In this document: positions 1,365-64,000 of the stretch, piece after piece
How positions within the stretch are numbered: the stretch's first letter is position 1
Layout: every line of letters starts with the position of its first letter
Virus record (IMG/VR): IMGVR_UViG_3300010885_074114
Coordinates: 24,341-88,340 of that record
DNA from: a virus
Length of the DNA stretch: 64,000 nt
Reading direction: 5' to 3' (one strand)
The notes under the pieces: generated by a model
What the model saw: the letters and a program-made list of their open reading frames with translations, nothing else
What the model was told of the DNA's origin: nothing
Databases searched by the model: none
Position numbers and translations under genes: made by a program

Positions 1365-3197
1365 CTACCAATCAAATTCACGTAAAATGTTGTTGTTTTT
1401 TCTTTGTTCGTTCATTATTGGACTTGCCGAGTTGTCCATATCTGGTGCCAGTAGATCTATTTCCTCTTCCTCAAGGTCGTCTATAGACATTTCGTCTATT
1501 TCTTTTTTAATTTCTTCATAAACTTGCGATTTTATGCTAGCATTATCCTCTCTAGTTCTTTCTTCTAATCCTATTGGAACATCTCTAGCTATTGACTCTC
1601 TAACATATAATGCCATGCACATAGAAAGTATGGCATCATCATGTTTTCCTTTTTGTGCCTGTGCTTTTTTTGTTACGGCATTATATTCAAATGTTTGAAG
1701 TTCTGTAACGAACCTTATGCTATTTATCAAAATAGAATTATTTATAAGTCTGTTTTGCAAAGACTCTAGGAATAAAGCCCTATTTGTCTGACCGATTTTT
1801 ATTCCAGGCTTTGTATTAGAAGTTATTTTGTCTGTATCATAATAAAGATTATCATAATATAGGGTGTGTTGTAAGTTGCTTATTACAGCACCGCCTGGTC
1901 CCATATGTTCTATTGCCAGCATAGCATTATTGTAAAAAGTTCCCACTTCGTTTAGAACCTGAGCAAATTCATGTGGAACAATTGTGTTAGAATAAAATTC
2001 GGCTACTTGTTCAAGCGACATAGTGTCTATTATTTCAAAACAAGAATTATCATTATTTTCTCCTTGTCCTTCAGCACAATCTACTCCAATTATGTATTCA
2101 TGACCTTCAATTGGCTCTTTCCAGACCCACAAGGCTCCCCTTAAATGTTCATTTTCTAATTGAGCCATTCGACCTGTACGATTAGACCATTTTGAAAATA
2201 ATTTTCTGCTCGGATGATTTTCTCTCGTTTGTTCTGTTAGATCAGTTATCACTTTTGTAGGAAAATATGTTTCTCCTGATCCTAAAAACTCTCTCATTAC
2301 TTCTTGTAAGAATCCTTTTGGTCCAAGCTGTGCTTTTTGCTCAGCAACCCATTTTGGATCATTATAATCGGGATGCTCCCAGTAATCTAAGTCTATAACA
2401 TGAAATTTGTTTCTATTTTCTTTTGCATCAACATATGTTTGCTCATACCAATTACCCAATCCATTAACAGTAGAAATTAAAGTGCATGATCCACCGGTAG
2501 ACAGTACCGGCCACATAGCTTTCCAGTGCTTTTCCATATCGTCAATAAATGCGGCTTCGTCTACGATTAAAAATGTAACGGCTTTACCTCGTGCCGCCTC
2601 AGGAGAGTAAAACTTTATGGCGGAACCAGTGTCTGTAAACATTTTTAAATGATCGTTCCATTTTCCTTCTTTTTTTGGCTTTAACCAAATTGGAAAATGC
2701 TCGCAAGCCCTATCGATCATCATGCCAATGTCGGTTGCTTCTCTATCTGTTTTAGACAACAACATTATTTGTTGATCCATTTGAAACATACACCTCCATA
2801 GCCCCCACAAAAGAGTAACGGTGGTGAGTCCTCCCTGCCTAAACTTGCTAATTATGTTGAATCTATAAACCTCGTAATCCTTAATTACCTTTCTTTGGTA
2901 CCCATATAAGACAAATGGAACAAGACCCTTCATTGGATGTAGAATCTTAATATATTTGTGGCAAAAATATGGAAAAGAATTACAACATTTTATAATTTCT
3001 TTTTGCCTTCTATCAGAGTCATACGCATCAACCTCTTCGGCTGATTCGCAGGGATCTATTTCAAGTTCGTATTTGTCAAATTCGTAATATTGAGGATCAT
3101 ACTGAAATTGTTTCTTTTTTTTATCAAAAATGCCGCCAGATTCATAAAAGTCTTTTAAATTTTTATGTGATTTTTTCCAGAATTTTTCTTTAGACAT
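1365..3197 (-). CDS. gp17: Terminase large subunit (T4 gp17-like)
   Basis: DNA-packaging motor ATPase and headful nuclease that docks on the portal. At 610 residues it has the same length as T4 gp17. The N-terminal ATPase half has a Walker A-like stretch (SKFRQGGLTT, about residues 117-126), Walker B FLIVDEAAF, and a coupling motif LISTVNG. The C-terminal RNase H-like nuclease begins at YIIGVDCAEGQ, with the metal-binding Asp in VDCAEG, and a late acidic motif GKHDDAILS. The Walker A departs from the usual GKT/GKS (GGLTT), as in gp17-type terminases where the P-loop is divergent. It heads the leftward string and is divergent from the ferritin-like gene at 3309. Confidence 0.95.
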   Translation of the reverse strand: MSKEKFWKKSHKNLKDFYESGGIFDKKKKQFQYDPQYYEFDKYELEIDPCESAEEVDAYDSDRRQKEIIKCCNSFPYFCHKYIKILHPMKGLVPFVLYGYQRKVIKDYEVYRFNIISKFRQGGLTTVTLLWGLWRCMFQMDQQIMLLSKTDREATDIGMMIDRACEHFPIWLKPKKEGKWNDHLKMFTDTGSAIKFYSPEAARGKAVTFLIVDEAAFIDDMEKHWKAMWPVLSTGGSCTLISTVNGLGNWYEQTYVDAKENRNKFHVIDLDYWEHPDYNDPKWVAEQKAQLGPKGFLQEVMREFLGSGETYFPTKVITDLTEQTRENHPSRKLFSKWSNRTGRMAQLENEHLRGALWVWKEPIEGHEYIIGVDCAEGQGENNDNSCFEIIDTMSLEQVAEFYSNTIVPHEFAQVLNEVGTFYNNAMLAIEHMGPGGAVISNLQHTLYYDNLYYDTDKITSNTKPGIKIGQTNRALFLESLQNRLINNSILINSIRFVTELQTFEYNAVTKKAQAQKGKHDDAILSMCMALYVRESIARDVPIGLEERTREDNASIKSQVYEEIKKEIDEMSIDDLEEEEIDLLAPDMDNSASPIMNEQRKNNNILREFDW

Positions 3198-3308
3198 AAT
3201 ACTAACTTAGTTAATGTTTGCGAGAAACATATCTAGTAGACTTGACTCTCTGTTTAAATTATTATAATATATCTCAATCAATATAATTAAATTAAAAAGG
3301 AACGTTAA

Positions 3309-3749
3309 ATGGGCGAAAAATCAATACAATTAGCAGATATGCTGGAGATACTTAATGGAGACTTAAGAAATGAATGGAAGCACTTAAGATTTTACCTATT
3401 CCATGCTAGTGCTGTAACAGGTCTTCATGCTACAGAGTATAAAGAGTTTTTTCTTGAAGAAGCAGCAGGCGAAATGGTGCATGTAACGCAGTTTTCTGAC
3501 TTAATCATAGGATTAGGGGGAACCGCAACAGATAAGTCTAATGACTTTTTAAAGTTTAAAAAGCCAAAAGAAATATTAGAATATGCTTACGAAATGGAAA
3601 AAGAAGTTGTTTCAAATTATTCTGAGCGAATAAAACACGCCCAAATATTGGGTGGCGTCGACGGGCAATGGTTAGAAATTTTCCTAGAAACACAAATACA
3701 AAAGAGTCGAGAAGATGTAGACCATTATAAACAAATAATTCAAGAATAG
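3309..3749 (+). CDS. Ferritin-like diiron protein
   Basis: A 146-residue four-helix-bundle protein of the ferritin/bacterioferritin type. Visible features are helix 1 with NEWKHLRFYL, helix 2 with an E-x-x-H motif in EAAGEMVHV, helix 3 with MEKEVVSNYSERI, and helix 4 with REDVDHYKQII. Families of this kind bind a di-iron centre and oxidise or store iron. Helix 4 lacks an obvious E-x-x-H, so the metal site may be incomplete. A good ribosome-binding site (AAAGGA) precedes the ATG. It is immediately followed by the CYTH gene with essentially no gap. Iron storage, oxidative protection or a non-metabolic role are all open. Confidence 0.75.
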   Translation: MGEKSIQLADMLEILNGDLRNEWKHLRFYLFHASAVTGLHATEYKEFFLEEAAGEMVHVTQFSDLIIGLGGTATDKSNDFLKFKKPKEILEYAYEMEKEVVSNYSERIKHAQILGGVDGQWLEIFLETQIQKSREDVDHYKQIIQE

Positions 3750-4689: not shown

Positions 4690-4815
4690 AAGAACGAACG
4701 TAATATCCGCTCCTACTGATTTTAGACAATCATAAGATTGCATTTAGTGGGAGAGGAAACTCACCCGCATTTAGCGTGTGTGTAGCTCAACGTCCACGAA
4801 TTAGAAAAGGGTAAA
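4690..4815 (+). other. Candidate structured 5' leader
   Basis: The 165 nt between the genes at 4355 and 4820 has no ORF. It contains nested inverted repeats: CTCCTAC near 4713 can pair with GTGGGAG near 4748, enclosing CAATC-ATAA-GATTG. A 22-base stretch of it (CTCCTACTGATT and CAATCATAAG) recurs at 20467-20489 upstream of an endonuclease gene with five bases missing between the halves. It might be an RNA element or a homing-site remnant. No known riboswitch was recognised. Confidence 0.35.
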
Positions 4816-4819
4816 AAAA

Positions 4820-5320
4820 ATGAATAATGTTGAAAAATGGACACTTGATGACGGAAGACGAGCTGAAAAAACAACCACAGAAAAACAAGTTAATGAGTTA
4901 GAGTTTGAGAGAGTTATAGAAATTAGTGTAGAAGAAGAGCGAACATTAAATTTGCAAAAAAGAATAACAGAAAAAACTCGACCATTTGTTTATGAAAGAA
5001 CAATAGAAACAATTAACGCAACTGGTGAAGTCGTTGACAAAGTGGTTGAGTCTATTGATCCTGAAGTTAACCTTAAATTAGTACAATTGAATAATGATAG
5101 TTATGTTACAAAAAACGAAATGATTGAAACAATTGTAGAAGCTATAAAGTCTTCAAAAGATTTGCCTGTTAGTGCATGTCAAATTAATACGAGAGGTGCC
5201 GCAGAAGAAATATCAAATTTAAAAGTAGTTGGCTATTCTGTTAAGGATATTGTTTTAACGCTTGTTATTGTATTACAGGTTGCATTCTTAGCCTATTTGC
5301 TTGTTACTAAACCCAACTAA
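4820..5320 (+). CDS. Tail-anchored membrane protein, unknown
   Basis: A 166-residue protein with a charged, Glu/Arg/Thr-rich N-terminal region (about residues 1-140) and one C-terminal hydrophobic segment (VLTLVIVLQVAFLAYLLV) ending in a short basic tail. The topology suggests a tail-anchored inner-membrane protein with its bulk in the cytoplasm. It is preceded by AAAAGGG and by the candidate structured leader. No family recognised. It sits 14 nt before the gene at 5335, with which it is probably co-transcribed. Confidence 0.75.
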   Translation: MNNVEKWTLDDGRRAEKTTTEKQVNELEFERVIEISVEEERTLNLQKRITEKTRPFVYERTIETINATGEVVDKVVESIDPEVNLKLVQLNNDSYVTKNEMIETIVEAIKSSKDLPVSACQINTRGAAEEISNLKVVGYSVKDIVLTLVIVLQVAFLAYLLVTKPN

Positions 5321-6564: not shown

Positions 6565-7073
6565 TTTTTTCTCAAATTTTCTAATATTGTGTTTTTCTGT
6601 TTTTCTTTTTTATTTATATTTTCTTTTTTATCTCTTATTTTAACTTCTTTGTCAATGCCTTTTGCAATATTATAAAAATATTCTATTTTTTCTTGCCACT
6701 TTTCTTGTGGAGCATAGTTTTCTAATTCTCCAGATACCTCCTTATAAACTACATTGCTTTCGTTTGTTACTATTATTTCTCTTAAATGGAATCTAACAAG
6801 AATAGAGATATTTGATCCACGTGATAATCCATCAAAGTGTAAACCAATTTCTTGCGTTTGTTCCATATCATCCATTGTGTGTATGGTTTCTTCTGTTTCC
6901 TGAAACTCATATGGATCTGCAAACTCGGTGCAGTCGGAGTACAGTCCTCCTTGCCTTATGATGGGGAACCCAAGTCTTTTTGCAATTAAGCAAAATTTAC
7001 CACCAAGACCCATATAGCCATTTTTCATTGCTTCTAATGTTCTTGCCTCTTGAACTCTTTGATAAGGATCCAT
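6552..7073 (-). CDS. Unknown protein with charged C-terminal tail
   Basis: A 173-residue protein beginning DPYQRVQEARTLEAMKNGYM. A central acidic region (residues about 50-75) is followed by a beta-rich stretch (RGSNISILVRFHLREIIVT) and a Lys/Glu-rich C-terminal helix. No family recognised. It overlaps the next leftward gene by 13 nt. It is divergent from the metallopeptidase gene at 7153, and the TATATA-type box lies between them. Confidence 0.65.
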   Translation of the reverse strand: MDPYQRVQEARTLEAMKNGYMGLGGKFCLIAKRLGFPIIRQGGLYSDCTEFADPYEFQETEETIHTMDDMEQTQEIGLHFDGLSRGSNISILVRFHLREIIVTNESNVVYKEVSGELENYAPQEKWQEKIEYFYNIAKGIDKEVKIRDKKENINKKEKQKNTILENLRKKWGI

Positions 7074-8974: not shown

Positions 8975-9373
8975 ATGAAGAAACTTGTACTTTTAAAAGA
9001 AAAATCACCTAGCTGCCATTTGATAAATTATTTTTTTGTATCCGTTACTTGCGAACTCGATACCGTTGTGAATCATGAATTTATAGGTTCGAATGAATCA
9101 TGCAGCTATGACGATTATGACGACGATGAAGATGAAGATTACGATGATGACGATGATGATGATGAAGATGATGACGAGGACGATAGTGACGATGGTTACA
9201 ATGACTACAAATATGAAAAGTATGATGATGATGATGATGATTACGAAGATGATGATGAGGATGATGATGAGGACGAGAACGATGATGAGGACGATGAGGA
9301 CGAGGATGAGGATGAAGACGACGATGAGGATGAAGACGACGATGAAGATGATGATTGGTCCATAGATGGATAA
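8975..9373 (+). CDS. Protein with long Asp/Glu repeat tail
   Basis: A 132-residue protein. The first 44 residues are ordinary (KKLVLLKEKSPSCHLINYFF and on), with a hydrophobic stretch. From about residue 45 the protein is almost only Asp and Glu with occasional Tyr, Asn and Lys. It ends DDWSIDG. GAGAGG precedes the ATG. The DNA of the tail is a GAT/GAC/GAA/GAG trinucleotide repeat that can change length by slippage. Such polyanionic tails can mimic DNA, chelate metals or buffer basic proteins; no specific role is shown. Confidence 0.65.
   Translation: MKKLVLLKEKSPSCHLINYFFVSVTCELDTVVNHEFIGSNESCSYDDYDDDEDEDYDDDDDDDEDDDEDDSDDGYNDYKYEKYDDDDDDYEDDDEDDDEDENDDEDDEDEDEDEDDDEDEDDDEDDDWSIDG
9109..9356 (+). 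repeat. GAY/GAR trinucleotide repeat tract
   Basis: About 250 nt of nearly pure GAT, GAC, GAA and GAG codons encoding the acidic tail of the gene at 8975. The complementary strand reads as poly-serine, which produces a spurious antisense ORF. Confidence 0.85.
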
Positions 9374-11286: not shown

Positions 11287-13821
11287 ATGCCCATATGGAG
11301 TGATTTTTTTAAACTGTTCACGTACGCCGGTGAGCAGGATCCTTTGTCAAAACAAAAGGATAACAATCAATTTCAAGGAGCTGGAATTGCACAACCGGAT
11401 GCTATGGGCGTCGATTTCGCTGGAAGCGGTCCCAATTCGGGCACAGCCGGATTGCGTCAAACGAATGATATGATCGATACGACCACTCTCACAAATCGGT
11501 CGATGAGATACAAAGAATACGAAAGACTAAGAAACGTACCAGAAATAGAAATGGCTATGACAGTGTTCTCTGATGAGGCATGTGTCGTTGGAGACACAAA
11601 AGTAGCTACTCCTTTTGGAATGATTAGTATAAAAGAACTAGCAGAGGAAAAAGGTAAAGAAAGATTCTTGGTTTATTGCTATGATTTTGAAAGTAAAGAC
11701 TACTCATTAGGATGGGCTTTTTCTCCAAGATTAGTAAAAGAAGAAAAAACACTAACACTTGTGCTAGACAATGGCACTACTTTAACATGCACCGAAGATC
11801 ATAAAATATTGAAAAGAGATGGAACTTGGGCAGAAGCTGGCGAATTAAAACTATTTGAAGAGTTAATGCCCTTTTATAGAAAGCCAGCAAATTTTAGATT
11901 AACTAAAATAAGACAAAAACAATACCCAAGATTGTTTACTTTTTCTCATGGATGGATTCACGAAAGAAAATTTATAGACGATTGGAAATCAGGTAATAAA
12001 AAATCAGATTATAAAAGCGAAGTTGTAAGCAAAGCAATGAGAATGATCGGAGCAGGCATATCTGTTCGAAAAATAGTAGCAGAAATAAAAAAAGATTGGC
12101 TTACCATAGAAAGTTGGATAAAAGCACAAGGCTTTTCACACCAAGAAACAAAGAATTTATTCAAATTAGAAGATAGAAGAAAAATTGTAGGAATACATCA
12201 AAATGAAGACCCGCAACCTGTTTATGATCTTTCTGTAGAAAATCACAAATGCTTTGCAACAGATAGCTTAATAATTCACAATTGCCAAAAAGATGAAACA
12301 GGAAATATCCTGAAAGTTGTTGCAAATAATGAAGAAGTTAAAAAAGAAATAGAATTTCTAATGCTTCATCGAAAAATGCTGAACATAAACAGAAACGGAT
12401 GGGGATGGTTTAAGAGCTTGTGTATATCAGGAGATTTATTTCTAGAAATAATTATCAATCCTGATAGCCCAAAAGATGGAATATACAAAACTGTACCGCT
12501 ACCGCCCGACACAATGTACAAAATAGAAACAGTTAAAGGAAAGGTAATAGAATACCAACAGTCAAAAGAAGGACCAGACTATCAGGCTATAGTAAGAGGA
12601 TCAGCGGATGGATTCAATGACACAGAACTAAACAACACAACAGCAATACGATTTGCTACAAATCAAATCGTACATTTTAAAATAGGAGATGATAGAAAAA
12701 CATTTTATCCATACGGACAGTCTTTAGTAGAACCAGCAAGAGGTCCAGCACATAACCTCAGAATGCTAGAAGATGCTATGGTAATTTATAGGCTCACCCG
12801 CGCCCCTGAGAGGCGTGTTTTTTACATAGATGTAGGGCAATTACCTCCATTCAAAGCAGAAGCTTTCCTAGAAAGAGTAAAAGATCAATTCCGCAAAAGA
12901 AAAGTAACAAGCAATAGAGGAAATAGTGCAGGAGCTAATCAAGTAGACGAAAGATGGCAACCTCCTGCACAAGATGAAGATTATTGGTTGCCAACGAGAC
13001 CAAATAGCAACACTAGAATTGAAACTCTTCCAGGTGCTGAAAACTTAGGAGAAATTGACGATGCTATATATTTTAGAAATAAATTACTTACTTCACTTAA
13101 CTTTCCTAAAAATTATTTTAATAACGAAGATCCTACTGCAACAAGAATAACTTTGTCTTCGCAAGATGTAAAATTTGCACGAATGATAGAAAGATTACAA
13201 AGCAATTTTGAAGACGGACTTTTAGCAATAGCTGAAACGCATTTACATCTAAGAGGTTTTCCTGAATCATCTTATCAAGATATTAGAATAAAAATGACGC
13301 CACCATCCGATTGGAGAGAACTCTCTCGATCAGAAGTCATTACCGCTCGATACGGAAATGCAGCAAATCTAAAAAGCTCACTTCTTATGTCAGATTATGA
13401 CATAATAAATAAAATACTAAAGTATGGGGAAAACGAAACAGAAGAAATGATTGCAAGATTAAAAATACAAAAACTTGAAGATCTTAAACTTCAAGTTATG
13501 GCTCAAAATCCACAGCTTCTAGGCGTGGGAATACCAGGACAAGAAGAATCTTCAACAGAACTAGGCACAGATCCAAGTGGACCGAATCCCATGATATCGC
13601 CAGAAGGACAACCAGAAGGACAACCCGAGGGACAACCCGAAGGACAACCTGATGAACAATCCGACGAACCACAAGGACCAGAAAAAGAGCAAACACCAGA
13701 ACCAATTAATTTAGAAGAACCATCAAAAGACGATATAAAGAAATATGATCTAGAATTACAAGGATACGAAGCAGAACAAGACCTTGAAGATATAGATTAT
13801 AGCGTCGGGGACAACGGATGA
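11287..13821 (+). CDS. gp20: Portal protein (T4 gp20-like) containing an intein
   Basis: The portal dodecamer forms the head vertex through which DNA enters, and it nucleates head assembly. The 844-residue precursor contains a 234-residue intein (residues 99-332). The spliced protein would be 610 residues (T4 gp20 is 524). Portal hallmarks are RYKEYERLRNVPEIEMAMTVFSDEA before the intein (seen in two parts here), and later RAPERRVFYIDVGQLP and FPKNYFNNEDPTATRITLSSQD. The C-terminus has an extra acidic tail with tandem PEGQ repeats. The gene order portal, core, protease, scaffold, capsid is that of T4. The stop overlaps the next ORF. Confidence 0.93.
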   Translation: MPIWSDFFKLFTYAGEQDPLSKQKDNNQFQGAGIAQPDAMGVDFAGSGPNSGTAGLRQTNDMIDTTTLTNRSMRYKEYERLRNVPEIEMAMTVFSDEACVVGDTKVATPFGMISIKELAEEKGKERFLVYCYDFESKDYSLGWAFSPRLVKEEKTLTLVLDNGTTLTCTEDHKILKRDGTWAEAGELKLFEELMPFYRKPANFRLTKIRQKQYPRLFTFSHGWIHERKFIDDWKSGNKKSDYKSEVVSKAMRMIGAGISVRKIVAEIKKDWLTIESWIKAQGFSHQETKNLFKLEDRRKIVGIHQNEDPQPVYDLSVENHKCFATDSLIIHNCQKDETGNILKVVANNEEVKKEIEFLMLHRKMLNINRNGWGWFKSLCISGDLFLEIIINPDSPKDGIYKTVPLPPDTMYKIETVKGKVIEYQQSKEGPDYQAIVRGSADGFNDTELNNTTAIRFATNQIVHFKIGDDRKTFYPYGQSLVEPARGPAHNLRMLEDAMVIYRLTRAPERRVFYIDVGQLPPFKAEAFLERVKDQFRKRKVTSNRGNSAGANQVDERWQPPAQDEDYWLPTRPNSNTRIETLPGAENLGEIDDAIYFRNKLLTSLNFPKNYFNNEDPTATRITLSSQDVKFARMIERLQSNFEDGLLAIAETHLHLRGFPESSYQDIRIKMTPPSDWRELSRSEVITARYGNAANLKSSLLMSDYDIINKILKYGENETEEMIARLKIQKLEDLKLQVMAQNPQLLGVGIPGQEESSTELGTDPSGPNPMISPEGQPEGQPEGQPEGQPDEQSDEPQGPEKEQTPEPINLEEPSKDDIKKYDLELQGYEAEQDLEDIDYSVGDNG
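11581..12282 (+). mobile_element. Mini-intein in portal gene
   Basis: An in-frame 702-nt insertion coding for an intein. Block A starts at Cys1 (CVVGDTKVATPFG), block B is LTCTEDHKIL with the Thr/His pair, block F is PVYDLSVENHKCF, and block G ends IIHN, followed by the Cys +1 of the C-extein. All splicing residues (Cys1, B-block His, penultimate His, terminal Asn, Cys+1) are present, so splicing is expected. There is no LAGLIDADG or HNH endonuclease. Instead about 60 residues (12000-12170) resemble a helix-turn-helix (SKAMRMIGAGISVRKIVAEI). The site is the conserved SDEA region of the portal. Confidence 0.92.
13600..13659 (+). repeat. 12-bp tandem repeat (PEGQ) in portal tail
   Basis: Four near-identical copies of CCAGAAGGACAA and one diverged copy (ending GATGAACAA) encode PEGQ-PEGQ-PEGQ-PEGQ-PDEQ near the C-terminus of the portal. 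Copy number could vary by slippage without disturbing the frame. Confidence 0.85.
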
Positions 13822-40580: not shown

Positions 40581-41321
40581 TCAGTCATGAATTTGCAAAG
40601 CACTTTTATCTGAAATGAATATATTTTCACCAAAAGCAAGTTCGAACCAGATATTATATATTCCGGCATCGATTTCTGAGGTGTCTATAAAGTAGTAGGC
40701 GTACATTTTTTCACGAAATCCAACAAGTTGTCTGTCTACCAATAGTTTCAAGTCATTTTCTACTGGCACACAATCACCGCAAGCAGATTCTATTGACACT
40801 CTTAAATCTGCTACTATTGCTAAATTTTCGTAGTAGTTTTGTACATCTGATCCTCTCGGTACATTCGGTGTTACCTGTATTAGCAGATATCTTTTTGTAC
40901 CTTTTCTTATTCTATTTGGTCTAAAGTTAAAATTAAAGTCATAAATTGGAGGCACAGAAGTTGTGAACCAAAGATCTGGATAGATTGTGAAGTTGTTGGT
41001 TATAGTTGCAACACAAGCTTCATTGTCTTCAAATTTAACAGTCCATTTGTCTACATAATTTCCAATAACATAATCCGGATCCAGTGCTGCAATTTCCAGC
41101 AAATATTGTCCAGCGGATTCATTCGTTACATTGTTCCCACTTATTGTTTCTATTAATCGAAGTCCATCTGGATTATCAACTGTTTTTTCTGCTGGATCTA
41201 AGAAATATATTTTAACTTCTTCTATTTCATTTACATTAACTTTGTTATTACTGTTATAGGTGAATAGCCTTAAGAAAATATTGTCTCCAACCGTTGGATT
41301 TTGGTATCTTTCTTTTGTCAC
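40581..41321 (-). CDS. Probable tail/baseplate structural protein
   Basis: A 246-residue beta-rich protein of unknown family, starting at GTG 41321 six bases after AAGGAAG. It has two halves of similar size, each ending in an immunoglobulin-like set of strands (YLLEIAALDPDYVIGNY; YYFIDTSEIDAGIYNIWFEL). It comes 3 nt after the candidate frameshift extension of the gp26-like gene, so it belongs to the same tail operon. A baseplate or tail role is inferred from position. Confidence 0.65.
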   Translation of the reverse strand: MTKERYQNPTVGDNIFLRLFTYNSNNKVNVNEIEEVKIYFLDPAEKTVDNPDGLRLIETISGNNVTNESAGQYLLEIAALDPDYVIGNYVDKWTVKFEDNEACVATITNNFTIYPDLWFTTSVPPIYDFNFNFRPNRIRKGTKRYLLIQVTPNVPRGSDVQNYYENLAIVADLRVSIESACGDCVPVENDLKLLVDRQLVGFREKMYAYYFIDTSEIDAGIYNIWFELAFGENIFISDKSALQIHD

Positions 41322-41324
41322 TTC

Positions 41325-41557
41325 TTACTTCCTTTTTGACTGAGATTGTGCTTTTTTTCTAGAAGACTCCATAGCTGCATTCTCGCTTTCCTTTTGCTGA
41401 ATAAACCTTTCGATCATCCATTTTCTCATGTTTATTGGCAAACGCATAGACTTTTCCATATCAAGGTGCAAGTGATATTGAAAGAAAAAAACTTCTTCCG
41501 CTAACCCTTTCCATAGTTCTAGGCTTGGCTGGGCCCCTTCTTGCGCCGTGGGAAGAA
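41325..41557 (-). CDS. Start-less ORF reached by -1 frameshift from gp26-like gene
   Basis: In the -1 frame relative to the gp26-like gene, codons run from the slippery site through LPTAQEGAQPSLELWKGLAE and on to ...RKWMIERFIQQKESE and a Lys/Ser tail ending at TAA 41325. Upstream the frame is closed by TGA just before the heptamer, and there is no ATG, GTG or TTG until the middle (an ATG without ribosome site). The conserved-looking part, with W-K-x-L-A-E-E-V-x-F and L-P-x-x-x-R-K-W-x-I-E-R-F, begins before that ATG. About 77 residues would be added to the gp26-like protein. Confidence 0.7.
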
Positions 41558-42610
41558 AAAACTTGCTTCCAGTGGCAGATCTATTTCAAATTCAGCATAA
41601 CAGGAAGGACAAACAATTGATATATTGGTATCAACTCCAAACGGTGGTTCATTAATGACATTTCTTATATATGAAACGTCACTAATTGGCAAGCTTTTCA
41701 AAAGAATTTGAAGTTCATTTTTATTATCAATTCCATCAATTTCTTCTAATAGTGAAGCTGTTCTGAAAGTTAGAGTATCATCAGCAGCAGAATCACCGAA
41801 AGCCTTTACTCTTCGTTCTCTGTGGTCCGTAATATCTTGCTCATCTTTACCTGTTGAAAGTCTATAAGTAAAAGGAAGTTTTGTAGTTGGCAAAACGTCT
41901 TTAAGATTTGGTCCATATGTTTCTGGACATGATTCAACATAAAGTGCATTAAGATCTATCGTTGTAGAAAACTTTGCTTCACATTCGGGGCACTTAATTT
42001 CTACGTCATATTTTGGAGTGTATGAAATACCTCTTAAATAGATAAGAAGAAATGTTCTGTCGACTGAAAGCAAGTTTTCTGATTTGAATTGATTTCCTTC
42101 TTTTAGACATTTTTGGAATATCATATTAATTGCTTGACCTTTTCGAACAAATCTAGGAGTAGCCAAAATTTGTTCTTCTTCTCCGGTCATTGGTCTGATT
42201 GAAACAACTCCATTTGAAGGACCGTTATCTCCGTCATAAAATCGACCTTTAGACGGCAACTGTATTTCTTCATATACAGAGCTAGACCCTTTTATAATTT
42301 CTAAAAGATCTTTAAGATGCCCAGTACTGACTTCTTTCTTCTCAAAGCCTTTCATTTTTTGTTTTTGTTCTTTTTCCTCACCCATACTACTGAATCCAGA
42401 TTTAGGCTCGGTGCTTTCTCCTCGCACTTCTTTTAGTGCCCTTGTGAATTCAGCAGGAATATTGCCTTTTATTTGAACGCCGCTTCCTCCTTCTGAAGGT
42501 TGGGATTCAGAAACTGGAGAGTATGATTCTTGTGTTTCGTTTGTCTCATTTGCTTCATTTTCTGACACATCTTTATTTGGTCTCTTTGGGCGAAAAGCTT
42601 CATCTGCCAT
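41519..42610 (-). CDS. gp26: T4 gp26-like baseplate/tail assembly protein
   Basis: A 363-residue protein. After a Ser/Glu-rich disordered N-terminus (about 1-110), the core has the family start IQLPSKGRFYDG, then VVSIRPMTGEEEQILATPRF, two Cys-x-x-Cys knuckles (CPECEAKF, CPSCYAEF), and a helical region between them. This matches the T4 baseplate-hub gp26 type, though T4 gp26 is 208 residues. AAGGAG precedes the ATG. Near the end AGT-TTT-TTC forms a T-TTT-TTC heptamer 12 codons before the TAG. A -1 slip would make a longer fusion product. Zinc binding is inferred from the Cys pairs. Confidence 0.75.
   Translation of the reverse strand: MADEAFRPKRPNKDVSENEANETNETQESYSPVSESQPSEGGSGVQIKGNIPAEFTRALKEVRGESTEPKSGFSSMGEEKEQKQKMKGFEKKEVSTGHLKDLLEIIKGSSSVYEEIQLPSKGRFYDGDNGPSNGVVSIRPMTGEEEQILATPRFVRKGQAINMIFQKCLKEGNQFKSENLLSVDRTFLLIYLRGISYTPKYDVEIKCPECEAKFSTTIDLNALYVESCPETYGPNLKDVLPTTKLPFTYRLSTGKDEQDITDHRERRVKAFGDSAADDTLTFRTASLLEEIDGIDNKNELQILLKSLPISDVSYIRNVINEPPFGVDTNISIVCPSCYAEFEIDLPLEASFFFPRRKKGPSQA
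41555..41561 (-). promoter_or_regulatory. Candidate -1 ribosomal slippery site (T TTT TTC)
   Basis: The heptamer T-TTT-TTC is in the correct zero-frame phase (codons TTT TTC). It is followed by a locally GC-rich stretch (CCCACGGCGCAAGAAGGGG) that can form a short stem. Slippage leads into the 41325-41557 ORF, which has no start of its own. Confidence 0.7.
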
Positions 42611-42658
42611 TTTGGTCTCCTTAATGTTTATGCAATACTACTATGATAAGATAGTATC

Positions 42659-46996: not shown

Positions 46997-47551
46997 TCAT
47001 GCCTTTTTGAGATATGCCCTATCATATCTTAAAATTAGGTCGCACATAACTATGTCGCTACTCGCCATATCTAAATCTCCAAAGTCAATAGAGTTAGGCC
47101 ACACATGATCGAAACCCCATTTTTCTATAACATTTCCACATCCATCATAAAGCTCTAATTCTGCATCATGCTTTTTGAAGTTTTCTCCTGATGTAGTAGG
47201 AACAACGTCTGCAAGGCAAGACGGAACATATGTGCCTTTTTCTGGATCATATAGTTTTTTTAACCATTCGAATATAGGATGTTCATTTTTTTTAAGGTCA
47301 TATAATGTTAAGGCAACAGGTTTCCAATCGGGTTTTCCTGGATAATAAATAGTTTCTGTAAGATGCTGTGCTTCTATCTCTTTGAACGTAATAGTAGGTC
47401 TAGCTGATTTGTGTGGAGCTAAAGCATTAATCCCCTCAGCACTGATATCTTTTATTGTAAAAAGCCAACGAAATTTTCTTTTAAAACAGGTTGACTCATC
47501 ATCTAGCCCAAGACCTTTAACTGCTCCGGGACCCATATCTTCTAATTTCAT
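46997..47551 (-). CDS. gp19: Tail tube protein paralogue (T4 gp19-like)
   Basis: A 184-residue protein with the gp19 layout: KRKFRWLFTI near the start, ARPTITFKEIEAQHLTETIY, YPGKPDWKPVALTLYDL, ELELYDGCGNVIEKWGF and VWPNSIDFGDLD. These match the second tube gene upstream (47641) motif for motif, at lower overall identity. T4 has one gp19 (163 residues) plus the related gp54 at the tube base. So this copy may form the tube-baseplate junction or a specialised ring. It is separated from 47641 by a strong hairpin. Confidence 0.85.
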   Translation of the reverse strand: MKLEDMGPGAVKGLGLDDESTCFKRKFRWLFTIKDISAEGINALAPHKSARPTITFKEIEAQHLTETIYYPGKPDWKPVALTLYDLKKNEHPIFEWLKKLYDPEKGTYVPSCLADVVPTTSGENFKKHDAELELYDGCGNVIEKWGFDHVWPNSIDFGDLDMASSDIVMCDLILRYDRAYLKKA

Positions 47552-47582
47552 ATTAATTTTTCTATTAGAGTATAAAACAAGA

Positions 47583-47619
47583 AACCTTGTACCTATTAGA
47601 TAGTAATAAGTACAAGGTT
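47583..47619 (-). terminator. Hairpin between the two tail-tube genes
   Basis: AACCTTGTAC and GTACAAGGTT form a 10-bp stem extended by TATTA/TAATA pairing. On the minus strand it is followed by TCTTGTTTT. It is likely to terminate or attenuate transcription between the abundant tube gene and its paralogue. Confidence 0.7.
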
Positions 47620-47640
47620 CCTATTAAGTAATTATAAAAT

Positions 47641-48261
47641 TTAGTTGCAGCCAGCACAGCATGGTTCTACTGTTCCGTTGCATCGTGGGGTGTATGTGAC
47701 TTCACTGTAACGAAGAGTTAGTTCCAACGTTACTTCTTCCGAAGAAGAATAGTCTAATTCACCAAAATTCACTGCCTGTGGCCATACGTGGTTTAGCTCC
47801 CAGCTTTCAAGAGATGTACCACAGCCGTCATAAAGATCAATATAAGCAGTAGCTGCATATCCCTGTCCGCCGCCGCCTCTTTGACCTTTCTTAGAAGCTT
47901 GTGAATACGGAACCTGCTTGCCTGTGAAGTTAAAAGTCGTGGCAAGCCAACTGTAAAGAGCTGTCATGCCCTGTACGGTATCAGGACCAGCAATATCATA
48001 GAACGTGACCGTAATCGTTTCCCAGCTTGCTTTTCCTGGAATCCACATCTTGCTATTTAGAAAATTTATTTCAGTTTCTTCAATAGTTAGATTTGGTCTT
48101 GAGGCAAGCTTAACATAGAAAGGTGCAATGCGTCCGCCTGAGCAATTCGTCTTTAGCTCAAACGTCCACCTATATTTCCTCTTGAACACTACATTGTCTC
48201 CACCAAGTTGATCCATACCCATGTCGGTCAATTTGGCACCCGGTGCAAAAGCATTAGGCAT
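47641..48261 (-). CDS. gp19: Tail tube protein (T4 gp19-like)
   Basis: A 206-residue tube subunit: KRKYRWTFELK, ASRPNLTIEETEINFLNSKM, WIPGKASWETITVTFYDI, AYIDLYDGCGTSLESWEL and HVWPQAVNFGELDYSSSEEV. This is the beta-barrel that stacks to form the inner tube. It lies directly after the sheath gene, as in T4 (18-19), with the ribosome site AAAGGAG. A Cys-rich C-terminal tail (CNGTVEPCCAGC) is unusual for tube proteins. Confidence 0.92.
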   Translation of the reverse strand: MPNAFAPGAKLTDMGMDQLGGDNVVFKRKYRWTFELKTNCSGGRIAPFYVKLASRPNLTIEETEINFLNSKMWIPGKASWETITVTFYDIAGPDTVQGMTALYSWLATTFNFTGKQVPYSQASKKGQRGGGGQGYAATAYIDLYDGCGTSLESWELNHVWPQAVNFGELDYSSSEEVTLELTLRYSEVTYTPRCNGTVEPCCAGCN

Positions 48262-56640: not shown

Positions 56641-57645
56641 TTACTTTACGGCTTCAGCAGCTATTAGACACCCTCTTGCCACAGAATACAAGGGGTCTTC
56701 TGGTTTTATTATTGAGCCAATTTTTATAGGTAGCTGTGTTTGTTCAATTACATCTTTAAATAATTCTGTAAATCCGTTTGGAGAAGAAGTACCACCAGCA
56801 ATTACTATATCAATAGGAGCATCGGATCTAACTGTTTTAGAAATATCTGCAAAACCTTTTTTAATGCCACCAACGGTGTGCTCTATCATTAGTTTATATT
56901 GTGTACTTATTGCTCTTTGAATAAGATTCGTTGGAGGAACAGTAAGATCTATTTTTGTTTTTTCAATATTTATGTAAGCAATTGTCTCACCAGTTGCTTT
57001 TGCAGCCTGTTTGTCTATCCAATCTCCTGAGTTAACAATAGAAAAAGCAAACACTGGGTTGCCATACATAGCATAACAAACGTTCACCATTCCGCTTCCA
57101 AATGAGATTCCGATGCCAGTAAATGCTTTTCCTCCTAATTCCGCATACACTAAAGCTAAAGCCTCGTTAATTGGGTGTGCATCAACACGATATCCAGTTT
57201 CACTCTTATAAGCTTTAAATATTGCTTCTAGTATTCTTTGGTGATAGTCAGCATCAGTATCTTGGTTTATTGCATTTGCTGGAATACAGTAATAAAGAAT
57301 CTCTCCATCTTTTTTAACATTGTTAATCAAACTGTGAATCATAATAGAAAGTATTTGAAAAGCATCTTTTTCTTTTGGGTTTACACACCCGTGAATCATT
57401 GGGCGTTTTAGTTCTACTTGGCTCATCGTATACGCCATGTTCACGGATGCTTCTCCTAAAGCATATGCAATATTGTCCCGTTCTATCAGTGGCACTCCAG
57501 CACTCTTCATCATGTTAAAAACGAATCTGTTTTCAAGTGGAATTTCTAGAAATGCATTCACTTCTCTTTTATAAGAGAATTCCCCTTTGCTTGTTCTATT
57601 GCAACACACTAAATTATATGTACCAGCGTCAAATCCTACTGCCAT
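56641..57645 (-). CDS. Actin-like ATPase (ParM/MreB superfamily)
   Basis: A 334-residue protein with the actin-fold nucleotide motifs in order: phosphate-1 VGFDAGTYNLVCCN at the N-terminus, phosphate-2 GIGISFGSGMVNVCYAM (about residue 175), and the adenosine motif DIVIAGGTSSPNGF near the C-terminus. Connect regions (AHPINEALALVYAELG) are also visible. Such phage proteins form dynamic filaments that move or partition DNA or capsids, or act as chaperone-like ATPases. It sits between small structural-type genes, with no adjacent DNA-binding adaptor recognised. Filament formation is not shown by sequence. Confidence 0.8.
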   Translation of the reverse strand: MAVGFDAGTYNLVCCNRTSKGEFSYKREVNAFLEIPLENRFVFNMMKSAGVPLIERDNIAYALGEASVNMAYTMSQVELKRPMIHGCVNPKEKDAFQILSIMIHSLINNVKKDGEILYYCIPANAINQDTDADYHQRILEAIFKAYKSETGYRVDAHPINEALALVYAELGGKAFTGIGISFGSGMVNVCYAMYGNPVFAFSIVNSGDWIDKQAAKATGETIAYINIEKTKIDLTVPPTNLIQRAISTQYKLMIEHTVGGIKKGFADISKTVRSDAPIDIVIAGGTSSPNGFTELFKDVIEQTQLPIKIGSIIKPEDPLYSVARGCLIAAEAVK

Positions 57646-60083: not shown

Positions 60084-60968
60084 TTAGTTTTCAAAAAAAT
60101 CTATTATTTTGTCTTCATCTATATAAGCAGCAAATTCATGTTTTATTCCACTTGAACAATCTGCAACCTTAATTTCATAGTTTTTTTCTTGTGAAAGCCA
60201 GAATAAATTACTTCCTATTAAGTTGCTAGCAATTTTTTGCTGCGGATACATCCATAAGTTGTTTTCAAGTTTATCGGCTCCAGGACGTTCCTCTTTAAAT
60301 GAACTATCGCAACATAAAAGAAGCAGTTTTTCTACTCCAAATTTGTATGATAAACCAATTGACGCACATACGGGATTTCTATAATCGTCTATTTGCCATA
60401 GTGCCTCTTTTTTCCAAGAACCCTCATATTCTGACTCTTCCACAGGGCTATATCGGTACTTTATTCCGTTGTATTTGTTAAGAAACATAAAGTTTGTCCT
60501 TGTTGCCGCAATACAACGGGGTAATGGTCTATTTGTTCTAGGAAGATAAGACATACACTCATCATAAGGATTGTTTACAACATAATATGATAAGTTTCTT
60601 TGACACTGCCACTTTTTAAGACTTCCATTGACTCCTATTATAACAATATCTTTTGGCAAATTATCTAAAATTTTATGCTTTTCTTTAAAGTTAAATCCGT
60701 CAGAAACAATGATGATATTTGGGTGATAAATAGGGTTTGAATCTATCCATGTATATTTTTCTAATTGATTTTTAAACTCATTCGTTAGAAAAAGAAAATG
60801 ATCTTTTGCTTGAATTGTCTTGTTTATGTCCGAATAAGGAACATTATCCTTAGTAAAGTTTCTAACCCACATATTATCAGAAGTTAATATGTACTCATTA
60901 CCATTTTTGTTTTTTTTAATTCTCATTACATGCTCGTATATTACAAAACCGCAATAATTCAAGTTCAT
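60084..60968 (-). CDS. DUF115-like / Rossmann-type protein
   Basis: A 294-residue protein. A Rossmann-like core begins at IIIVSDGFNFKEKHKILDNL and PKDIVIIGVNGSLKKW. A second part has CASIGLSYKFGVEKLLLLCC and an acidic D-S-S-F motif. The layout resembles proteins of the DUF115/6-hydroxymethylpterin-pyrophosphokinase-like or sialyltransferase-like group linked to glycan modification. This is a weak match. The start overlaps the stop of the giant repeat gene as ATGA, so the two are translationally coupled. Confidence 0.5.
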   Translation of the reverse strand: MNLNYCGFVIYEHVMRIKKNKNGNEYILTSDNMWVRNFTKDNVPYSDINKTIQAKDHFLFLTNEFKNQLEKYTWIDSNPIYHPNIIIVSDGFNFKEKHKILDNLPKDIVIIGVNGSLKKWQCQRNLSYYVVNNPYDECMSYLPRTNRPLPRCIAATRTNFMFLNKYNGIKYRYSPVEESEYEGSWKKEALWQIDDYRNPVCASIGLSYKFGVEKLLLLCCDSSFKEERPGADKLENNLWMYPQQKIASNLIGSNLFWLSQEKNYEIKVADCSSGIKHEFAAYIDEDKIIDFFEN

Positions 60969-63900
60969 TTAGCACATGGAACAATAGCAACGCACTGTGC
61001 GTTTCCATTCTCGCCTGTAATTCTTCCAATATCTAAACTTATTTTTACGTCAATTGGAGAACCTTTATAAACTAGTTCTACTTCTGGTTTATCTGGAAGC
61101 ACCAACTTAATTTCTGACGGTGCACCAATAAGTTCAATAACAGAAGGTATTCCAACAACTTGAATTTTATCGGGTATACCAGATGCATCAATTTTTATAG
61201 ATGGGAAATAATCCGGTACCTGTAAAGGTATGAATTTTGGCAAACTACTAGAATCTATTGCTATGGAATCAGGAAGATTACTTACTAATTCTATTGTGCT
61301 AGGCATATTCAATACAAACATTTTTATTTCAGAAGGAATTGGTATCTCTGGGGATATAATTCTAATATCCGGTATTTCTGGAGATAACACTTTAATCATA
61401 ACGGGTATGTCATGAACAACTCTAATGTCTGGAACTTCTGGAAACTTAACTATTATTTCAGATGGGATACTAAAGTCCCCCATGCTTACTTCAATAGAAT
61501 CAGAATCTTGATCTTGATCTCTTGCTCTCATGCCGCCACCGCCGGGACTCGGACATTCTATAGACACGGTGCAGCTAAGCGTAGGAACAGAACCCCAATT
61601 TATACTTATTGTAGGTGCCGCTCCAAAGCCAATAGCAGAAAAAGTTGGTGCATTACCAAAATTAATTAAGGATGGCAACCACTCTCCACTTGTCCCCTTA
61701 GGCATAGGACCAAATTGAATTAAAGAAGGTAACCACTCTCCATTTAGCCCCTTAGGCATAGGACCAAACTGAATTAAAGAAGGCAACCACTCTCCATTTA
61801 GCCCTTTAGGCATCGGACCAAAACTAATTAAAGATGGTAGACCGGTCGGCATCGGACCAAAACTAATTGTAGATGGCAAACCAGTCGGCATCGGACCAAA
61901 ACTAATTGTAGATGGTAACCCTGTCGGCATAGGACCAAAACTAATTAAAGAAGGTAACCCTGTCGGCATAGGACCAAAACTAATTAAAGAAGGTAGACCT
62001 GTTGGCATAGGACCAAAACTAATTGTAGATGGTAGACCTGTTGGCATAGGACCAAATTCAATTAATGTAGTTCCAGTCGGTATCGGACCAAATTCAATTA
62101 ATGTAGTTCCAGTAGGTATCGGACCAAATTCAATTAATGTAGTTCCAGTAGGTATCGGACCAAATTCAATTAACGTTGTTCCAGTCGGTATTGGACCAAA
62201 TTCAATTAACGTAGTTCCAGTCGGTATAGGACCAAAACTAATTAATGTAGTTCCAATCGGTATCGGACCAAAACTAATTAAAGATGGTAGCCCTGTAGGT
62301 ATCGGACCAAAACTAATTAACGTAGTTCCAGTCGGTATCGGACCAAAACTAATTAATGTAGTTCCAGTCGGTATCGGACCAAAGTTAATTAAAGATGGTA
62401 AACCTGTCGGCATCGGACCAAAACTAATTATAGAGGGGAGCCCAGTCGGCATCGGACCAAAGCTAATTAACGTGGTGCCAGTCGGTATAGGACCAAAGTT
62501 AATTAACGTAGTTCCAGTTGGTATCGGACCAAAGTTAATTAACGTAGTTCCAGTTGGTATCGGACCAAATTCAATTAACGTGGTTCCAATCGGAATCGGA
62601 CCAAATTCAATTAACGTTGTTACATTCGGAATCGGACCAAAGTTAATTAATGTAGGCAGGCATACTTGTATGTCTATGTAAAGATTCGGCAAAGGACCAA
62701 AACTAATTAAAGTTGGCAGACCTGTCGGCATAGGACCAAAACTAATTATAGATGGAAGTCCAGTTGGTATAGGACCAAAGCTAATTAAAGTGGTTCCAGT
62801 CGGTATAGGACCAAAGTTAATTAAAGTAGTTCCAGTTGGTATCGGACCAAAGTTAATTAAAGTAGTTCCAGTTGGTATCGGACCAAAGTTAATTAACGTG
62901 GTTCCAATTGGTATAGGACCAAATTCAATTAAAGTAGTTCCAATTGGTATAGGACCAAAATTAATTAATGTAGGCAGACAAACTTGTATGTCTATGTAAA
63001 GATTTGGCAAAGGACCAAATTCAATTAAAGTTGGTAGACCTGTTGGCAAAGGACCAAAACTAATTATAGATGGCAATCCAGTTGGTATCGGACCAAAATT
63101 AATTAACGTAGTCCCAAATGGTATCGGACCAAATTCAATTAACGTAGTTCCAGTCGGTATAGGACCAAAGTTAATTAATGTAGGCAGGCAAACTTGTATG
63201 TCTATGTAAAGATTTGGCAAAGGACCAAATTCAATTAAAGTTGGCAGACCTGTCGGTATAGGTCCAAATTCAATCGAAGACGGTAGCCCCATTGGGATCG
63301 GACCAAACTCAATTAAAGTAGTTCCAGTCGGTATAGGACCAAAACTAATTAAAGTAGTACCAATTGGTATAGGACCAAAGTTAATTAACGTAGTTCCAGT
63401 CGGTATCGGACCAAAGTTAATTAATGTAGGCAAACATACTTGTATATCTATATAAAGATTAGGTAAAGGACCAAATTCAATTAAAGTTGGTACTGTTGGC
63501 ATAGGACCAAAACTAATTAACGATGTTCCAATCGGTATAGGACCAAAACTAATTAAAGTAGTTCCAGTCGGTATAGGACCGAAATTAATCAACGTAGGCA
63601 AACCAGTTGGTATAGGACCAAAACTAATTAAAGAAGGCAGACCAGTCGGTATAGGACCAAAACTAATTAAAGAAAGCAGACCAGTCGGTATAGGACCGAA
63701 ATTAATCAATGATGGAATGTTTGCAGGTCCAAATTCAATCTTTGAAGGCATACAAACTTGTATGTCTACTGTTACCGTTGGTACAGCACCAAAATTAATT
63801 AACGTTGGCACTGTAGGAGTAGGACCGAAGTTAATCGCTGATGGTACTGTAGGAATAGGACCAAAGTTAATCACGGACGGTATGTTTACAGGACCGAAAT

Positions 63901-64000
63901 TAATAACCGATGGAATGTTTACAGGAGAGAATTCAATCTTTGAAGGCATACAAACTTGTATGTCTACGGTAACCGTTGGTACAGCACCAAAATTAATTAA
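60965..64000 (-). CDS. Giant 12-residue-repeat protein, N-terminus beyond window
   Basis: At least 1011 residues. The frame is open to the right edge, so the true start lies outside. About 58 copies of a 12-residue unit (core L-I-x-F-G-P-I-P-T-G-x-x) fill the first 780 residues. They are interrupted at intervals by FGPLPNLYIDIQVCLP or FGAVPTVTVDIQVCMP spacers with one Cys each. The last 200 residues are a different, Pro/Ile/Val-rich region (IPSEIKMFV, LPSTIELVS-like units). Such regular units suggest a beta-solenoid fibre or sheet. No named family recognised. The stop is coupled to the next gene. Confidence 0.85.
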   Translation of the reverse strand, partial: LINFGAVPTVTVDIQVCMPSKIEFSPVNIPSVINFGPVNIPSVINFGPIPTVPSAINFGPTPTVPTLINFGAVPTVTVDIQVCMPSKIEFGPANIPSLINFGPIPTGLLSLISFGPIPTGLPSLISFGPIPTGLPTLINFGPIPTGTTLISFGPIPIGTSLISFGPMPTVPTLIEFGPLPNLYIDIQVCLPTLINFGPIPTGTTLINFGPIPIGTTLISFGPIPTGTTLIEFGPIPMGLPSSIEFGPIPTGLPTLIEFGPLPNLYIDIQVCLPTLINFGPIPTGTTLIEFGPIPFGTTLINFGPIPTGLPSIISFGPLPTGLPTLIEFGPLPNLYIDIQVCLPTLINFGPIPIGTTLIEFGPIPIGTTLINFGPIPTGTTLINFGPIPTGTTLINFGPIPTGTTLISFGPIPTGLPSIISFGPMPTGLPTLISFGPLPNLYIDIQVCLPTLINFGPIPNVTTLIEFGPIPIGTTLIEFGPIPTGTTLINFGPIPTGTTLINFGPIPTGTTLISFGPMPTGLPSIISFGPMPTGLPSLINFGPIPTGTTLISFGPIPTGTTLISFGPIPTGLPSLISFGPIPIGTTLISFGPIPTGTTLIEFGPIPTGTTLIEFGPIPTGTTLIEFGPIPTGTTLIEFGPIPTGTTLIEFGPMPTGLPSTISFGPMPTGLPSLISFGPMPTGLPSLISFGPMPTGLPSTISFGPMPTGLPSTISFGPMPTGLPSLISFGPMPKGLNGEWLPSLIQFGPMPKGLNGEWLPSLIQFGPMPKGTSGEWLPSLINFGNAPTFSAIGFGAAPTISINWGSVPTLSCTVSIECPSPGGGGMRARDQDQDSDSIEVSMGDFSIPSEIIVKFPEVPDIRVVHDIPVMIKVLSPEIPDIRIISPEIPIPSEIKMFVLNMPSTIELVSNLPDSIAIDSSSLPKFIPLQVPDYFPSIKIDASGIPDKIQVVGIPSVIELIGAPSEIKLVLPDKPEVELVYKGSPIDVKISLDIGRITGENGNAQCVAIVPCAK
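61667..64000 (-). repeat. 36-bp tandem repeats within giant repeat gene
   Basis: About 58 units of 36-42 bp (core GGACCAAA...AATTAA...), coding for the 12-residue repeats. Third-base changes between copies show selection for the protein. The antisense strand yields spurious VGIGPKLINV ORFs. Because unit lengths are multiples of three, copy number can change without breaking the frame. Confidence 0.9.

Follow-up and report, generated by a model that had tools for sequence, protein, structure and literature searches.

The gp26-like gene and its overlapping frame

The window analysed here is a stretch of DNA of 64,000 nucleotides from an IMG/VR virus record of 88,340 bases (IMGVR_UViG_3300010885_074114, positions 24,341 to 88,340). 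On its minus strand lies a gp26-like gene (41519..42610), which runs from ATG to TAG and encodes a putative short tail assembly chaperone of 363 amino acids with 43 IMG/VR relatives. The protein matches PF12322 (T4_baseplate) at E=1.4e-17 and 64.6 bits, above the curated cut-off of 24.5, and phrog_150 (baseplate hub) at E=6e-20, so that the name 'gp26-like' given to it in the original prediction was right. This was the only PF12322 match in the whole record. A ribosome-binding-like AAGGAG, read directly in the sequence, is located at 42617..42622 on the same strand, 6 nt before the ATG at 42610. The window also encodes a tail tube protein (gp19-like), a sheath-stabiliser (gp15-like), a major head protein, a terminase and a late sigma factor. 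Therefore, the gp26-like gene belongs to a large T4-related phage. AlphaFold modelled the short form poorly, with a mean pLDDT of 54, and a search of PDB sequences with the short-form profile gave 0 matches.

Near its 3' end, the gp26-like gene contains the slippery heptamer T TTT TTC (41555..41561, minus strand). The zero frame reads AGT TTT TTC at this site, and 11 sense codons separate the TTC from the stop codon that ends the short form (TAG at 41521-41519, minus strand; TAG or TAA in the relatives). Direct reading thus bears out the predicted heptamer in phase at 41561-41555, with the stop as the twelfth codon after it. The -1 frame is open for 86 codons from stop to stop (41325..41585, minus strand), bounded by a TGA just upstream (41588-41586) and a TAA at its end (41327-41325). 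The part behind the slip, from 41555 to the TAA, comprises 76 codons, 64 of which lie past the zero-frame stop, and the predicted fusion protein has 428 amino acids. The earliest ATG, GTG or TTG of this frame in the window is a TTG at 41471 (a position converted from a locus that is 100% identical to the window over the protein), which is downstream of a conserved EE-FFF core. Hence, the ORF is indeed preceded closely by a stop and offers no start codon ahead of its conserved core, as had been claimed. The next gene (40581..41321, minus strand) starts with GTG 3 nt after the -1 ORF ends and encodes a protein of 246 amino acids, for which neither Pfam nor, below E=0.05, PHROG gave a match.

Heptamers of the form XXXYYYZ are common in this AT-rich window, where 167 of them occur in phase across 51 stop-to-stop ORFs of at least 150 codons. 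Only three, including the candidate, lie at most 25 codons from a stop and are followed by at least 60 further codons in the -1 frame, and the other two (6570-6579) run into a gene that starts at an ATG of its own (6564). Since the motif is so common, the observation in a single sequence is only suggestive. A chance origin is rejected because of the relatives, in which the heptamer was present in 43 of 43 and 80 of 80 loci, the slip codons are frozen and the -1 frame has a coding pattern.

Codon conservation and coding signal in the family

Comparison within the family establishes, at the level of sequence, the conservation of the slip-site codons, coding selection in the -1 frame and the absence of a conserved start of its own for that frame. 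Relatives were collected from IMG/VR in two ways. A scan with the gp26-like protein gave 43 loci, one of which (L039) ends before the site; the 43 loci tested are the other 42 plus L044, a phage record of 595 kb. TTTTTTC was in phase in all 43 loci having both frames. These loci were reduced to 27 representatives below 97% identity, with a median pairwise identity of 67%. A second scan used the extension alone, through its EE-FFF and FI-QK core patterns and without use of the heptamer, and the best 80 of 104 loci were kept; here too the heptamer was in phase in 80 of the best 80. The two sets overlap, as the second contains every one of the 29 distinct 300-nt regions present in the first. Over both sets, there are 62 distinct regions (L044 not counted), of which 53 remain below 95% identity in an ungapped comparison. 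The alignment of relatives put forward with the original prediction thus finds the heptamer and the -1 overlap retained in phase in both of these overlapping sets.

The conservation extends to individual codons. Among the 27 representatives, 86 alignment columns have an invariant residue other than Met or Trp, and only two of these columns also have an invariant codon, namely the slip codons TTT TTC. Six other columns with an invariant Phe, none of them at the site, each use both TTT and TTC; for the Phe immediately after the heptamer, 26 representatives have TTC and one has TTT. The residue preceding the site varies (Ser, Asn or Gly), and its codon ends in T in 27 of the 27. The constraint on the C of the second slip codon could partly reflect dual coding, as this C also starts the first -1 codon (Leu). 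The freeze of the slip codons is not wholly dual coding, because the third base of the first codon has no role in the -1 Leu.

Differences between the representatives in the -1 frame past the zero-frame stop (alignment columns 22-60) were distributed over the three codon positions as.326/.173/.549. Judged by this pattern, the -1 frame after the stop is evolving as a translated protein. Invariant columns of the extension in the 27 representatives include E-x-FFF-x-YH, Pro, Arg, Gln and Glu. On its own, the extension had weak PHROG matches to phrog_20255 (E=3e-4) and phrog_1482 (E=0.05). Its matches to the Pfam families Tma16 and DUF525 were weak and below the cut-offs, and both assignments were rejected.

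The original prediction further held that a GC-rich stretch directly after the heptamer could form a stimulatory structure. This part was not supported, as the 70 nt past the heptamer in the window were less stable than shuffled sequences (z=+1.78) and nothing was conserved in the corresponding columns of the alignment. A consensus fold of 25 of the 27 representatives, from which L040 and L044 were omitted for their longer spacers, gave no structure in alignment columns 1-69. In individual folds of eight sequences, three had a z of -1.85 or lower. SD-like motifs within 20 nt upstream, another potential stimulator, were found in only 14 of the best 80 of 104 extension-found loci. The sole consensus stem (alignment columns 70-87) was discarded, since it overlies the EE-FFF codons and has no compensatory pair. 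A 3' stimulatory structure is not required of all -1 frameshift sites. The locus would be a clean example of a recoding site that is visible from codon-level conservation, without any RNA structure.

Extensions in other phages and in T4

We inspected 12 other phages with a gp26-like gene, and chose the frame of the extension according to which frame stayed open longer and to its motif as judged by eye. An extension follows the gp26-like gene in all 12. It is in the -1 frame in five (Atu_ph07, PA5oct, RaK2, XacN1 and CM1), at TTTTTTC or TTTTTTT, and in the +1/-2 frame in seven (GXN1, SP-15, LIS04, LR756508, Mel-JY01, Slickus01 and immuto). Five further phages were added. S-RIM8, SRB7757 and Aeromonas 65.2 have TTTTTTC with a -1 extension, and RM378 has an extension in the +1 frame. 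The extensions in the +1 frame of these T4-related phages would imply a +1 or -2 shift. The fifth phage, Cygsa01, has no heptamer, and its second ORF overlaps the stop with an ATG of its own, so this second ORF may be an ordinary separate gene.

The arrangement in S-RIM8, with gp26 followed by a 'baseplate hub assembly catalyst' (gp51), resembles the one described here in having TTTTTTC in phase and a -1 extension. It differs in the distance from slip to stop, which is 10 nt in S-RIM8 and the relatives inspected with it, compared with 40 nt here. Moreover, in the S-RIM8 group an in-frame ATG often follows, and the annotation of S-RIM8 treats the extension as a gene of its own. With the S-RIM8 protein as query, IMG/VR yielded at least 598 relatives, of which the best 80 were analysed; queries with PA5oct and SP-15 gave few relatives (3 and 1, respectively). 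All of the best 80 of 598 S-RIM8 relatives and both PA5oct-like loci have TTTTTTC in phase close to the stop (82 of 82). In the best 80 of 598, 43 columns are invariant and an invariant codon was found in only two of them, which are again TTT TTC. The extension continued for 57-66 codons past the stop in 78 of these best 80 loci; the other two reach the end of their contig. As a side observation, the layout of these best 80 of 598 loci is like that of S-RIM8 itself, whose 'baseplate hub assembly catalyst' (gene 51; positions 3169-3369 of the S-RIM8 sequence) is apparently the -1 extension of gp26, annotated from an internal ATG.

In T4, gp26 and gp51 each match PF12322, as does the short form here. 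The match of gp51 covers residues 1-201 of 249, and thus gp51 consists of a gp26-like domain plus a C-terminal tail, a plan like that of the predicted long form. Genes 26 and 51 of T4 are separate and on opposite strands, whereas here one gene has two overlapping frames. Furthermore, the two adjacent Phe codons close to the 3' end of T4 gene 26 read TTC TTT (positions 4815-4820 of the T4 sequence used) instead of TTT TTC, so the slippery heptamer is absent where the 26/51 gene pair exists. In 2022, Vladimirov, Gautam and Davidson reportedly named gp26 and gp51 as the tail assembly chaperones of T4. A review of T4 tail morphogenesis from 2010 lists both among the hub assembly chaperones (PMC3004832). 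In seven of seven related records of up to 595 kb, most of which are fragments, we found one PF12322 match per record. A single PF12322 gene per related record is suggestive, with the reservation that IMG/VR records may be fragments.

Direct comparison of the extension with the T4 gp51 tail gave no match, either between profiles (0.7%) or with gp51 in BLASTP. The extension profile reached 2.9% when compared with a mixed set and 6.2% with the other -1 phages, and in the PHROG scan the joined protein reached no further into phrog_150 than the short form. Stepwise profile comparison linked this family to the +1-frame group at 94.3%, the +1-frame group to the other -1 phages at 95.3%, and the other -1 phages to the gp51 tails at 95.8%. 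The +1-frame group compared directly with the gp51 tails gave 52.6%, and merged sets gave 39.7%. Homology of the extension with the gp51 tail is likely but unproven, as it was reached only through intermediates.

Proposed frameshifting, its alternatives and the wider pattern

On the comparative evidence, we consider it very probable that a programmed -1 frameshift yields two tail assembly chaperones from this locus, a short one (gp26-like) and a long one (gp51-like). Most ribosomes would read to the TAG and produce the short form of 363 amino acids. A minority would shift one base backwards at T TTT TTC, where two Phe tRNAs would re-pair from TTT-TTC to TTT-TTT, and would then translate 76 more codons in the -1 frame to give the long form of 428 amino acids. 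The C-terminal domain that the long form gains may take the place of the extra tail found in T4 gp51. By analogy with G/GT of phage lambda, short and long forms in a fixed ratio would act on the tape measure protein in tail assembly. The slip, its rate, its product, its partner and its role are what we infer here. The original prediction, in which a programmed -1 shift joins the gp26-like protein to the start-less ORF on the G/GT plan, agrees well with the retention of the heptamer in both scans (43/43 and 80/80).

Transcriptional slippage would lead to identical products. Here, RNA polymerase would add a U on the run of six T, and the ribosome would read the altered mRNA normally. Such slippage is possible on any run of T, and XacN1 and CM1 carry seven. 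Because the sites are homologous, their phase cannot separate transcriptional from ribosomal slippage. Nevertheless, this explanation appears improbable for the present family. In the best 80 of 104 extension-found loci the run has six T only; the base before it is A in 75 and G in five, the base after it is C in all 80, and no trend towards longer runs is seen. Moreover, the site is a textbook X XXY YYZ heptamer.

The start codons bear on a further possibility, namely that the -1 ORF is a separate small gene, translated from an internal start or by reinitiation after the stop, as the annotation of 'gp51' in S-RIM8 has it. As for homologues with an ATG and ribosome site of their own, against which the original prediction was to be weighed, no start is conserved within the family. 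No ATG, GTG or TTG precedes the core in the window, in 32 of the 43 loci, or in 42 of the best 80 of 104. Where starts exist ahead of the core, their positions differ. They include an in-frame ATG in 19 of the best 80 of 104 and in L040 and L044. In 33 of the 82 S-RIM8-related and PA5oct-like loci (the best 80 of 598 plus two), the -1 ORF has as its first start an ATG located at +5 relative to the stop, which together with the annotation of S-RIM8 speaks for a separate gene, and Cygsa01 may be such a case. The start pattern argues against a separate gene, although it is less absolute among the relatives than in the window. A separate gene would also leave the freeze of exactly two slip codons unexplained, and we regard it as very unlikely. 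Least credible, with almost no weight left to it, is a sequencing error or a decayed gene, i.e., one gene split by an indel or a -1 ORF that is a relic: errors of a single base are typical of homopolymer runs, but the arrangement recurs in 62 distinct sequences with coding selection in the -1 frame, and the zero-frame stops lie at several distances, from 31 to 55 nt, among the best 80 of 104 extension-found loci.

Programmed -1 frameshifting, as proposed here, follows the plan of G/GT in phage lambda (Xu, Hendrix and Duda; PMC10885494), where one gene gives a short and an extended product through a slip near its 3' end. As here, the second ORF of G/GT has no conserved start. G/GT-type genes lie between the tail tube and tape measure genes. 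The tube genes of the window (46997-48261) are upstream of the gp26-like gene, with other genes in between, and no tape measure gene was recognised near the gp26-like gene in PHROG scans of 19 larger or nearby ORFs. These 19, of which 10 are in the window and nine before it, are a subset of the ORFs of the record, including those listed for the 24 kb that precede the window, and the record itself may be incomplete. In SP-15, LIS04 and immuto, the gp26-like gene sits between the tube gene and a gene for a tape measure or putative tail protein. The tube genes of the window are themselves two adjacent gp19-like genes (46997-47551 and 47641-48261; phrog_4542).

Frameshifting in tail assembly chaperones is known in general, and poly-T sites in T4-like phages are known by report. 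The PRFect paper cites Vladimirov et al. (2022) for T4-like phages in which one short and one long gene replace frameshifting (PMC10885494). The original prediction took frameshifts of this kind as not established in T4-type phages. This point is weaker, since the paper on phage Adele (PMC12846349) credits Vladimirov et al. (2022) with -1 signals of the poly-T type in the TAC-N genes of T4-like phages. The same paper describes, from comparative evidence, a poly-T slip motif (GTTTTT) in the chaperone of Adele and a -1 extension that stays open for over 200 bp in each allele; a poly-T site and a -1 extension are found here too, in a phage family different from that of Adele (Vandenendeviridae). 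The present comparison contributes strong codon-level evidence for a frameshift in a lineage of large uncultured phages, together with a broader pattern.

Regarding this broader pattern, we think it likely that short and long chaperones made by frameshifting are the general, and probably ancestral, state of the T4 superfamily, with a -1 shift at T TTT TTC in cyanophages as well as in many large phages and a +1/-2 shift in others. The gene pair 26 and 51 of T4 would then be an exception that arose later, when a duplication was followed by decay of the slip site, and many cyanophage 'gene 51' entries would be the tail of a gp26 fusion. It is suggested that such entries, e.g., that of S-RIM8, have been misread. 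The frameshift would tie the G/GT rule of tail assembly to the contractile tails of T4-type phages, where it is hidden in T4 itself, and would account for a start-less ORF in large environmental phages. Furthermore, it predicts a specific junction peptide, ...EASFFLPTAQEGAQPSLELWK...

Several other features of the window were noted. A portal-like protein (11287-13821) matches phrog_213 over residues 348-736 of 844 and, by eye, has an apparent intein-like insertion from about CVVGDTKVATPFG to IIHNC. The larger part of a protein of 994 amino acids (60965-63949) consists of repeats of about 12-13 residues, similar to LINFGPIPTGTT. In an ORF of 132 amino acids (8975-9373), the later two thirds are nearly all Asp and Glu. 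Finally, a protein of 334 amino acids (56641-57645) appears actin/ParM-like by eye.
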